DNA of 64,000 nt, from NCBI RefSeq assembly GCF_000565015.1, contig NZ_JDFF01000004.1:1-64000 (forward strand). The letters run 5' to 3'. The notes below the pieces were generated by a model. The model saw nothing but the letters and a program-made list of their open reading frames with translations. It did not search any database and was not told the origin of the DNA. Shown one piece after another: positions 22,063 to 60,891 of the stretch (positions are counted from its first letter, which is position 1; each line of letters starts with the position of its first letter). This DNA is from Porphyromonas catoniae ATCC 51270 (GTDB lineage: Bacteria; Bacteroidota; Bacteroidia; Bacteroidales; Porphyromonadaceae). A program made the translations under genes and the position numbers.

Positions 22063-22077
22063 AGAGTTATAGTAACT
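22063..22077. repeat. Solo family A palindrome upstream of the SRP RNA promoter
   Basis: GAGTTATAGTAACTC is a 15-nt unit of the family A type in reversed orientation, with a possible degenerate partner 23 bp upstream (22040-22054, about 9 of 15 matches). It ends about 25 bp before the -7 box of the SRP RNA. Confidence 0.5.
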
Positions 22078-22102
22078 CGCTTGCATATTCGCAGAATTAT
22101 AC

Positions 22103-22110
22103 TACTTTTG
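22103..22110 (+). promoter_or_regulatory. -7 box of the SRP RNA / tRNA-Thr transcript
   Basis: TACTTTTG matches TAnnTTTG; TTG at 22081-22083 lies 19 bp upstream. The predicted start coincides with the 5' end of the SRP RNA fold. Confidence 0.65.
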
Positions 22111-22112
22111 CA

Positions 22113-22213
22113 CTCGGGTAAGTCCTATACGACCAGCTCCCTTTGACTCCCCCAGGGCTTGATCGCAGCAAGGGTATTAGGTTGTAGCGGTGCGATATAG
22201 ATCGCTTACCCAC
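22113..22213 (+). ncRNA. ffs: Small signal recognition particle RNA (4.5S type)
   Basis: The conserved apical region reads GACTCCCCCAGG ... GCAGCAAGGGTA, the small bacterial SRP RNA signature (symmetric and asymmetric loops), here with an unusual apical sequence (GGGCTTGATCGC) in place of the usual GGAA tetraloop region. The ends pair (GGGTAAG at 22116-22122 with CTTACCC at 22205-22211), giving one long hairpin of about 100 nt. A promoter box sits directly upstream. With Ffh and FtsY (5156-6109) this RNA targets membrane proteins to the Sec translocon. The tRNA-Thr gene starts four bases later and is probably cotranscribed. The ends are approximate. Confidence 0.82.
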
Positions 22214-22216
22214 CTT

Positions 22217-22290
22217 GCCTCTTTAGCTCAGTTGGCCAGAGCACGTGATTTGTAATCTCGGGGTCGTTGGTTCGAATCCGACAAGAGGCT
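22217..22290 (+). tRNA. tRNA-Thr (anticodon TGT)
   Basis: A 74-nt cloverleaf: acceptor GCCTCTT/AAGAGGC, D-arm TAGCTCAGTTGG, anticodon loop TTTGTAA with anticodon TGT, T-arm GGTTCGAATCC. CCA is not encoded. It lies just downstream of the SRP RNA and is followed by a hairpin. Confidence 0.95.
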
Positions 22291-22293
22291 CAA

Positions 22294-28595: not shown

Positions 28596-28707
28596 CTAAT
28601 TAATCCTCATGTTCCACAGATTGAAATCCCATACACAGCTACACATTCTCCAAAGAGATAGCCTCTTTCAAACGTCCTAAATTGGGCGTTTATACAGGCA
28701 TTGCAAC

Positions 28708-28814
28708 GAGTTACCATAAGTCGTTACAACGAGTTACCATAACTCTCCGTAGCGACTTACCACAACTCATTTAAACGAGTTACCACAACTCTATGGAAAG
28801 AGTTGTGGTAACTC
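28708..28814. repeat. Family A palindrome array, copy 1 (5 units, 23-bp pitch, fifth reversed)
   Basis: Units of 15 nt start at 28708, 28731, 28754, 28777 and 28800. The first four are GAGTTACCATAACTC or close variants; the fifth is GAGTTGTGGTAACTC, the reverse complement of a GAGTTACCACAACTC unit. Spacers are 8 nt and differ. The array lies between the lipoprotein promoter and the end of the DUF721 gene. A degenerate shared tail (GTAGAC-ATACCT... to AGGCTATTT) follows the last unit. Nothing else is recognised in 28596-28965. Confidence 0.92.
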
Positions 28815-28965
28815 GTAGACATACCTTCTTAAAACACCGTAAACAGGCTATTTCTAAGAGATAAAATAGGAATGTAGAAGAATACAGATTGTGACTGAGG
28901 GTATTTTCTCCCCTTATATGACCTTTTCATCCAGCTCCTGCTAGACACTGCTCTTCACTCGGCTC

Positions 28966-39479: not shown

Positions 39480-39538
39480 ATCCCTATATAATCTCCTATA
39501 AGTCAAAGAATTACAGAGTCACAAAAATTACCCTCAAC

Positions 39539-39645
39539 GAGTTGCCATAAGTCGCCATCACGAGTTACCATAACTCGTTTCAGAGACTTACCATAACTCA
39601 CTAAAACGAGTTACCACAACTATTTTTAATGAGTTATGGTAACTC
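39539..39645. repeat. Family A palindrome array, copy 2 (5 units, fifth reversed)
   Basis: Units start at 39539, 39562, 39585, 39608 and 39631 (exact 23-bp pitch). The first four are GAGTTGCCATAAGTC, GAGTTACCATAACTC, GACTTACCATAACTC and GAGTTACCACAACTA; the fifth, GAGTTATGGTAACTC, is reversed. The array lies between convergent genes (OmpA-family, plus; rpoN, minus). Confidence 0.92.
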
Positions 39646-39730
39646 GTCACACACGCCTCACCAAGGCACGAAATACGCGTATTGTAGAGGGTGAAAGAAG
39701 ACTGATTGGGAAAGTTTGTAGGTATTAGGG

Positions 39731-43854: not shown

Positions 43855-44091
43855 TTAGTAAAGGGCTATGACGCCCTCCAGCACATCGTCCCCTAATCGT
43901 ATTGCGTAAACCAAGGCATTGTCTTGGTCTCGTAACCACATGAAAGCGAGTAGCTCCATCCTCCCCGATGATAAGGCATGGCGACAGATACAAACGTGGG
44001 GCTTCCCCTCACACTCAAAGACGCACAACCCCTCTTTCCTTAACCAGAGAAACACATCATCACCACCCCTGACGCAACCCACTATAAACAA
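43855..44091 (-). CDS. Possible small hypothetical protein (78 aa)
   Basis: An open frame on the minus strand lies between the ansA promoter and a family A array. It starts at TTG (or GTG nine bases later) and encodes a peptide with four or more cysteines near PHVCICRHAL and a hydrophobic C-terminal half (MELLAFMWLRDQDNALVYAI). Codon choice looks acceptable for this genome, but no family is recognised, the start codon is not ATG and no clear promoter box is present. It may be a real small protein or a chance frame. Confidence 0.3.
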   Translation of the reverse strand: MFIVGCVRGGDDVFLWLRKEGLCVFECEGKPHVCICRHALSSGRMELLAFMWLRDQDNALVYAIRLGDDVLEGVIALY

Positions 44092-44124
44092 AGAATATAC
44101 GAAGGCACAGGAATGCAGATCTAC

Positions 44125-44231
44125 GAGTTACCATAACCCGCTTAAACGACTTACCACAACTCGTCATGACGACTTACCATAACTCTCCCAAACGAGTTAC
44201 CATAACTCGTCTGAGCGACTTATGGTAACTC
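44125..44231. repeat. Family A palindrome array, copy 3 (5 units, fifth reversed)
   Basis: Units start at 44125, 44148, 44171, 44194 and 44217 (exact 23-bp pitch); the fifth, GACTTATGGTAACTC, is reversed. It lies in a divergent region upstream of dnaX. The tail after the last unit (GTAGAGCACCCCTCAC ... AAATAGGCACTTTGAG) resembles the tail of copy 1. Confidence 0.92.
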
Positions 44232-44360
44232 GTAGAGCACCCCTCACAACAGCCCTAAATAGGCACTTTGAGAAGGAGTATTTTCGACAACCCCTATCTC
44301 TCCCCTCAGCGCCTTCCCGAGAGACCTATGACCATTCCCAGACAACTCAGGCAAGATCGC

Positions 44361-49499: not shown

Positions 49500-49874
49500 A
49501 TGATTATGGAGAAAGAATGGAACGGCTCAGTGACCCTCGTCTCACAGAAGATAAAGGCTGGCACCCGACACTATTATATCGATGCTAAGCTCGACACAAA
49601 AGGGAATAAGTACATCGTACTCTCTGAGACGAAGATGAGAGAGAGCGAGGGTAAGCCCGAGAGACATCGTATCTTCATCTACGAAGAAGACTTTGCCAAG
49701 GTCTCCCAAGCCTTGCTAGAGACCATCATGCAAATATCGGATGGTGTCTTGCAGGAGATGCCTGACCTAGGGAGAAATGTACCTAGTCAGCCCCAAGAAG
49801 AGGCCCACCATGCTCCTCAGCCTGAGGATGTGCAAATCGGCTCCTTCGACCTTGACTGGACGGACGAGGCTTAG
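49500..49874 (+). CDS. PUR-alpha-like nucleic-acid-binding protein (DUF3276)
   Basis: The 124-residue protein (122 if it starts at ATG 49506) has the Bacteroidota PUR domain: SVTLVSQKIKAGTRHYYID, KGNKYIVLSETK and HRIFIYEEDFAKV form the beta-beta-beta-beta-alpha pattern of PUR repeats. An acidic, Pro/Gln-rich tail follows. These proteins bind single-stranded nucleic acids. The promoter lies so close (49488-49495) that the internal ATG 49506 may be the real start. Probably monocistronic. Confidence 0.85.
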   Translation: MIMEKEWNGSVTLVSQKIKAGTRHYYIDAKLDTKGNKYIVLSETKMRESEGKPERHRIFIYEEDFAKVSQALLETIMQISDGVLQEMPDLGRNVPSQPQEEAHHAPQPEDVQIGSFDLDWTDEA

Positions 49875-53338: not shown

Positions 53339-53384
53339 TGCAGGGTGCGGTTAGATTCACTCCCCTTGATCACGTAGCTAGAGA

Positions 53385-53467
53385 CCCTTGCAAGGATTTA
53401 TAAACAAGTCCTTGCAAGGGTCTCGCTTATACCCCATGCAAGGGTCTCGAGCGAAGCCTAGCATGGG
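53385..53467. repeat. Family B palindrome array, copy 4 (4 units)
   Basis: Units CCCTTGCAAGGA, TCCTTGCAAGGG, CCCATGCAAGGG and CCTAGCATGGG are centred at 53390, 53414, 53438 and 53461 (steps of 24, 24 and 23 bp). It lies between the glycosyltransferase and the rarA promoter. Confidence 0.85.
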
Positions 53468-59841: not shown

Positions 59842-60012
59842 CTATGCTGGTTTTCCCCAACACCATCCGGACTTTACCCGAGGCATATCCACTAAATTAC
59901 TACGGCAAGCCGAAGACCCTCTTGATTTAAAAGAGTGGGCAACTCTTTGGGGAATGAATTCCAAGCATAGAGTGCTATACTTGTAGCTTTCCTCGAAGCA
60001 TTTGATAAGCAT
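59842..60012 (-). CDS. Candidate 56-aa small protein directly behind the cobalamin riboswitch
   Basis: An uninterrupted 57-codon frame runs on the minus strand from ATG 60012 to TAG 59842. The ATG begins two bases after the GACCTGC that ends the riboswitch aptamer, so ligand binding could control translation directly. The peptide has cysteines at positions 5, 17, 36 and 48 and ends GWCWGKPA. It contains ten serines and many Arg/Lys, with no signal peptide or membrane helix. I recognise no family. A frame of this length can occur by chance, and the region also holds small hairpins (AAGAGT/ACTCTT, GGAAT/ATTCC), so an RNA function is the main alternative. Confidence 0.4.
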   Translation of the reverse strand: MLIKCFEESYKYSTLCLEFIPQRVAHSFKSRGSSACRSNLVDMPRVKSGWCWGKPA

Positions 60013-60200
60013 TGCAGGTCTTCTGACTTGTACACCTTGTCTACCGACGCATCACCTTCCCAAGGACACAGAACCCTCAGTGGTGGTGGGTTACCCCAGC
60101 ATATCGTGGTAGCTGTATGATGTACTCACAGCAGCGGGACTGTCCGAGACTCACACTCGATTCCCTTTTAAGCTCACCCCCACGCACACAGATCTATGTG
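60013..60200 (-). ncRNA. Cobalamin (B12) riboswitch
   Basis: Reading the minus strand, the conserved parts appear in order: AAAAGGGAAT, GTGAGTCTCGGACAGTCCCGC-type core (seen as GTGAGTCTC, ACAGTCCCGCTGCTGTGAG), CCACTGAGGGTTC, CTTGGGAAGG, GATGCGTCGG and AAGTCAGAAGACCTGC. This is a full cobalamin aptamer with the B12-box region. A TACCTTTG promoter lies just upstream (60226-60233). The 3' end runs straight into the ATG of a 56-codon ORF. No B12 uptake or synthesis gene follows; the next known gene is the GH20 hexosaminidase. The ends are approximate. Confidence 0.92.
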
Positions 60201-60225
60201 AGAGCAAGACACAACGCTTTGGGGG

Positions 60226-60233: not shown

Positions 60234-60435
60234 GTAAAATAGTCGAGAATGTACACCTCTTATCCGATGATGGGGGAGCATATTCCTTCGCTCGTTTCTC
60301 TCCCCGTACCCATCGATCGACATGTGGTGTAATGGGAATAAAGTGTACACCTAAAGTCAAAAAACGACCCTAAAAGGAGTACAAAAACAAACTATAATCC
60401 AGCAACTTATAAACCCCACCCAAACACACCCCAAT

Positions 60436-60542
60436 GACTTACCATAACTCGTCACAACGAGTTACTATAACTCATCCAAGCGAGTTACCATAACTCTCTG
60501 AAACGACTTACCACAACTCTCTAAAACGAGTTATGGTAACTC
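60436..60542. repeat. Family A palindrome array, copy 4 (5 units, fifth reversed)
   Basis: Units start at 60436, 60459, 60482, 60505 and 60528 (exact 23-bp pitch); the fifth, GAGTTATGGTAACTC, is reversed. It lies in the divergent region between the riboswitch and serC. Confidence 0.92.
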
Positions 60543-60891
60543 TCAGAGGCACCCCCAAACACACTCTATATCTAACTCTCCTTCACCCTTGCTCGAGGCT
60601 CTTTGATTCATCCTGCACCACCTCACCCCAACCTCTACATTATTATATAGCAGATACACGAGGGTCAGTTGAGGTGTGTTCATTTGACACATCATAACGA
60701 GCCAGCAACCAGACCCAAGGCAACAAGCATGTCATTATCACACACTCTAGGAGCAGGGTATTACCAAAATTTGGGGGAAACATGCACATCATTAAATATT
60801 TTAATTGACTGAATATCAACGCTTATAGACTAACATTTTTACCCCTCGGGGCAAATAGTGAAGTAAAGTAACAATCTTCTCGTTTTTTTGA
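60543..60891. other. Intergenic region without a recognised gene
   Basis: No ORF or RNA family is recognised. The second half is AT-rich (for example around 60780-60840) and leads into the serC promoter. Confidence 0.5.

Follow-up and report, generated by a model that had tools for sequence, protein, structure and literature searches.

The question raised by this locus is what kind of element a chromosomal array of five short palindromes with a fixed pitch and one reversed member represents, and what in the cell might read it. The window analysed here, a stretch of 64,000 nucleotides, comes from contig 4 of the host genome (G000; 2.04 Mb in 25 contigs). A sequence-only reading had described five 15-nt palindromes at a 23-bp pitch with the fifth reversed, and this proved exact: the units starting at 28708, 28731, 28754 and 28777 share the plus orientation with centre CCA, and the unit starting at 28800 is reversed. 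The three further places said to repeat the design do so, each with five units and the last reversed (Table 1). In the window as a whole, 29 units match with no more than three mismatches where 1.42 were expected, a number reached in 0 of 100 shuffles. The genes adjoining the window arrays encode DciA/RecF-like, OmpA-family, RpoN, asparaginase, DnaX, GH20 and aminotransferase proteins and have no theme. One protein of the window scores above the NCBIfam cut-off for DipepPtdsDpp5Prph (dipeptidyl-peptidase Dpp5), in keeping with Porphyromonas as the probable genus of the host.

Table 1. Coordinates of the arrays, their flanks and nearby features in the window
Feature	Coordinates	Strand	Details
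Focal five-unit array	28708-28814	+	order ++++-, pitch 23 bp, zero mismatches to the genome-wide pattern
Focal array with outer RRC / GYY bases	28705-28817	+	each 21-bp dyad complete
Left flank of focal array	28658-28707	+	class X, contains AAACGTCCTAAATTGGGCGTTT
Right flank of focal array	28815-28864	-	likewise class X
Second array	39539-39645	+	order ++++-; flank Y 39489-39538, flank X 39646-39695
Third array	44125-44231	+	order ++++-, upstream of dnaX; flank Y 44075-44124, flank X 44232-44281
Fourth array	60436-60542	+	order ++++-; flank Y 60386-60435, flank X 60543-60592
Solitary unit	22064-22078	-	GAGTTACTATAACTC, immediately upstream of the gene for the small SRP RNA
Bacteroidales small SRP RNA	22109-22215		tRNA-Thr directly after; region with the preceding solitary unit 22064-22291
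Cobalamin riboswitch	59996-60224	-	shares its intergenic region with the fourth array

The design was searched in full (107 bp, five 15-nt units at 23-bp pitch, last reversed, no more than three mismatches) and found 82 times in the host genome, 48 times forward and 34 times reverse, as against 0 for a control pattern; adjacent unit pairs number 505 at the same tolerance. A 464-kb sample of this genome, read base by base, contains 34 multi-unit places and 6 solitary units. In 32 of the 34 places the number of units is exactly five, at 23 bp; the other two are a four-unit and a three-unit array. The ++++- order is present in 24 of the 32 five-unit arrays. The genome-wide scan and the count of units per locus thus bear out the design, and unit number, pitch and orientation do not vary at random. 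Extrapolation from the sample gives roughly 140 arrays in this genome, with a unit counter that overlooks diverged arrays.

The spacers had been thought to differ almost completely; this was not sustained, as they follow K-Y-Y-N-N-N-R-C. Aligned units carry RRC before the 15-mer and KYY after it, and the true unit is therefore a 21-bp dyad, RRC-GASTTACCAYAASTC-GYY, with about 2 bp left free between neighbours. The two half-sites vary independently of each other in the host genome. Watson-Crick pairing between unit positions 2 and 12 was 0.476 against 0.571 expected (164 units; 0 of 2000 shuffles as low), and it again fell below expectation when units 1-3 were counted in 71 arrays from the whole genome (90 versus 103, P 0.01), a set that overlaps with the 164 units. 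In the same-genus genome G015, half-sites are independent too and pairing is no higher than shuffled. Independent halves and avoided pairing fit a protein dimer bound to duplex DNA better than they fit a hairpin. Units 1-4 differ compositionally at some positions (P 0.002-0.014), which may come from either ancestry or role.

By gene calls from a simple codon model, every one of the 33 arrays that have at least four units in the 464-kb sample lies between called genes. Their orientation relative to genes is about random (6 versus 5 in co-directional gaps), and they approach a stop to 43 bp at the closest and never come within 135 bp of a called start. Divergent regions hold 15 of the 30 arrays with both neighbours called, versus 29 of 126 long intergenic regions overall; convergent and downstream positions occur as well.

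The sequence on either side of the arrays is also patterned, and a model with two flank classes was preferred by BIC. The consensus of class X is tt..cCCTt.aaAAa.gcC.TAtATA.GGgGtTT.t.aagGGGg..taAC and that of class Y is AAc..aCT...AatcAA..a.ATA.AAA...; one X and one Y flank accompany 25 of 30 canonical arrays, and the focal array is one of 2 with X on both sides. Among the 25, the X flank is on the left, next to unit 1, in 12 arrays and on the right, next to the reversed unit, in 13. Arrays of one arrangement resemble each other in their spacers more than they resemble arrays of the other (P 0.003, and P 0.007 when a close subfamily was cut to one representative), and six closely related copies agree, so the array has turned round between its flanks on one or more occasions in the past, with ongoing flipping only a possibility. 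In the 464-kb sample motif X rises above threshold solely at arrays or no more than 120 bp from them, and its use as a general terminator was rejected on this ground. Arrays of G015 have the motif as well, and its distance from them, 29-31 bp, is unchanged.

Subfamilies within the 71-array set have spacers and flanks in common, and copies therefore disperse. Small non-coding dispersed copies with shared ends, a general trait of MITEs, are present here as X-array-Y units and shared-spacer subfamilies. An early test on 24 arrays, which gave no common ancestry of spacers, was underpowered. Spacers within one array are no more alike than spacers of different arrays. The flanks of the six related copies align, and this alignment gave no exact ends or target duplications. 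Mean pairwise identity is 0.91 for units, 0.50 for spacers, 0.34 for flanks and 0.26 for far flank. Since units are 91% identical while flanks at 34% are near the background of 26%, selection seems to act on the array itself, its units having been kept after dispersal as the rest decayed.

BrickBuilt, a MITE of P. gingivalis, is present in 19 copies with spacer-less repeats that number 1 to 22.8 per copy (Klein et al. 2015, PMC4596501). The suggestion that the present arrays are a relative is borne out in layout, since both are dispersed in many copies per genome as 23-bp tandem arrays between two distinct flanks, leader and tail in BrickBuilt and X and Y here, and both are strictly intergenic. 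It fails in descent. The arrays have diverged spacers, nearly always five units and about 80-140 copies, and a search of the window for the BrickBuilt 23-nt unit GAGACCATAGTATCCTCTCATAT at 3 mismatches gave 0 matches; the unit is present in G025, read as P. gingivalis. The BrickBuilt terminal inverted repeat, GAGACCTTTGCA / TGCAAAGGTCTC, matches the window at 1 mismatch only at 49694 and 53381-53448, and at no array. Judged by sequence, ends or unit number, the arrays are thus not a BrickBuilt member, and other palindrome-array families of G025 are closer to them in layout. Tandem direct repeats of 22 and 23 nt were reported in P. gingivalis W83, with locations not given then (PMC4596501); their pitch is like that of the arrays here, and the 22/23-bp palindrome families of G025 are probably of one class with them. 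Literature searches gave no account of the present arrays other than the BrickBuilt paper (PMC4596501). As a separate observation, GAGACCCTTGCA occurs three times within 70 bp of the window (53381-53448), once on the plus and twice on the minus strand; it has one mismatch to the P. gingivalis IS5/BrickBuilt terminal repeat, and the copies are possibly an IS or MITE remnant.

The REP, BIME and REPIN elements and their RAYT transposases offer another comparison. They too are dispersed intergenic palindromes, arranged in arrays with inverted members and lineage-specific in sequence. Unlike them, the present arrays have a fixed two-turn pitch, variable spacers and no hairpin conservation; no covarying stem of the REP type was found, pairing being below expectation. 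Plasmid iterons and partition centromeres such as R1 parC consist of about five short sites at a fixed helical pitch that are bound cooperatively, which is the geometry seen here, but the present arrays are chromosomal, exceed 80 copies, have palindromic units and show no adjacent rep/par operon. The search for a mobile partner covered RAYT and IS5-type domains. RAYT (Y1_Tnp, PF01797) had no match in G000 or G015 and was rejected. The IS5-type N-terminal domain, the presumed type of the BrickBuilt partner, was found in G000 only at two contig ends, was absent from G015 and G021 and fell below cut-off in G005; all three of these genomes carry arrays, and IS5 was rejected on its absence from the first two. 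A viral origin was likewise rejected, with no exact match in IMG/VR, and a plasmid search gave no match.

The adjacent unit pair of the host is absent from all 25 same-genus genomes searched, and relatives have arrays of their own. In 460 kb of G015, whose dnaX protein is 72% identical to that of the host, arrays occupy 38 places; most have four units at a 23-bp pitch, and their half-site GACCYAC is related to yet different from GASTTAC of the host. The G015 unit pair occurs 309 times in that genome and in none of the others among the 26 searched, and its copies are younger, with spacers in common. Runs of about 100 N lie inside G015 arrays at L096, L098, L115, L116, L118, L119, L120, L121 and L130, so that arrays in this genome may break short-read assemblies. 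Arrays of G005 have four units. A scan blind to sequence found intergenic repeats with a pitch of about 21-23 bp in 16 of 21 sampled same-genus genomes (G000 aside), mostly lineage-specific palindromic units and usually 3-5 per array; small samples of G003, G007, G009, G011 and G023 gave no arrays. Such repeats are far fewer in other Bacteroidota, and some are palindromic.

Besides BrickBuilt, G025 has several palindrome-array families at 22-23 bp, one of them common to G010 only. A family at 22-bp pitch in this genome (read as P. gingivalis ATCC 33277), GATYTATATAYAAATC, is not BrickBuilt and has many copies, mostly of five units (L230, L231, L260, L266, L271, L272, L274, L275, L277), and several of its arrays end beside a GGCCnnnnnGGCC-like hairpin. 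Of the G025 samples, the first 200 kb seemed poorer in arrays than the stretches at 0.98-1.14 and 1.5-1.6 Mb; the numbers are small, and array density along this chromosome is possibly biased. As arrays have 3-5 units by family across genomes, five-ness is not universal, and the number of units is characteristic of the family. The proposal of a protein or structure that counts units is accordingly kept in part: independent halves and avoided pairing speak for a protein that reads the units, and counting is not needed because unit number is set per family and could be inherited as copies disperse.

The most plausible hypothesis explaining these observations, to which we give a probability of about one half, is a dispersed MITE-like element with dyads bound by a dimeric protein, domesticated as a host platform for several dimers. 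The element would be an intergenic unit of about 200 bp, consisting of flank X, the five-unit array and flank Y. Each 21-bp dyad may be read on duplex DNA by a putative dimeric sequence-specific protein, with five dimers side by side at the 23-bp pitch, perhaps binding cooperatively and covering about 113 bp. After spread by copying, flanks and inner spacer bases decayed while unit sequences were kept at each site, and the arrays may now serve as host nucleoprotein platforms between transcription units, with a role most likely in chromosome organisation or insulation rather than in control of particular genes. Relatives keep the geometry with drifted or different unit sequences, as would follow if each family and its reader protein had changed together. 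The neighbouring genes lack a common theme, and it is therefore conservation alone that argues for a host function. Further observations speak against this explanation. Array positions in G000 and G015 orthologues are shared in 5 of 9 cases (raw P 0.002), but there is no excess beyond that from long intergenic regions (P 0.65 when a length of 200 bp or more was required of both regions), and shared positions were rejected. No insertion site was found in both occupied and empty form; the few aligned G005/G025 intergenic regions inspected by eye for such sites were heavily diverged. The unrelated palindrome families, several within one species, would moreover need several reader proteins.

The main rival is a purely selfish MITE-like element, with units as recombinase or transposase sites of an autonomous partner and conservation reflecting mobility needs. 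We consider this rather unlikely, though it accommodates much: the subfamilies with common spacers and flanks, the intergenic location and random orientation, the lineage-specific families, the younger G015 copies, and the at least one past inversion indicated by arrays that face either way between their flanks. What it accommodates poorly is that copies with drifted spacers keep their units at 91% with flanks at 34%, since dead copies should decay evenly, and that the RAYT transposase is missing from G000 and G015 and the IS5-type domain is missing or below cut-off in the array carriers G015, G021 and G005.

Other explanations are considerably weaker. Operators of one gene-specific regulator with a large regulon could account for the enrichment in divergent regions, and yet the convergent and downstream arrays, the random orientation, the distance of 135 bp or more from starts and the functionally mixed neighbours (RpoN, DnaX, OmpA family, asparaginase, GH20) make this improbable. 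Action as a single strand, through RNA hairpins or DNA cruciforms used for example as terminators or processing sites, is already disfavoured and slightly less probable again. The predicted RNA fold of each window array is much more stable than those of shuffled sequences (z -7 to -11), but covariation between pairing positions is lacking and pairing is even avoided, G015 shows no more pairing than shuffled units, the four window arrays differ in predicted fold topology, and many arrays lie between divergent genes, a setting without transcript ends; an Rfam search gave no RNA family match at arrays. An ordinary minisatellite made by slippage would explain tandem units with a fixed period, but a unit number fixed at five, spacers that differ and are no more alike within than between arrays, and one reversed unit in a fixed place leave it barely credible.

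Returning to the domesticated element, its array of five dyads at a 23-bp pitch is a concrete bait for a candidate reader protein. Geometry that is kept across species while sequence turns over is unusual among bacterial repeats, and it is the signature expected if a DNA-binding protein evolves in step with its sites across the genome. The similar geometry with different sequences in relatives points to an unrecognised, fast-evolving DNA-binding system on these chromosomes. Tentatively, and with less confidence than for the element itself, one may speculate on a genus-wide chromosome-organising or insulating system, in which fast-evolving dimeric proteins would occupy three to five two-turn-spaced dyads at about 100 intergenic sites in each genome, one dialect giving way to another from lineage to lineage. 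If true, the isolated BrickBuilt report would join a general class in the genus.
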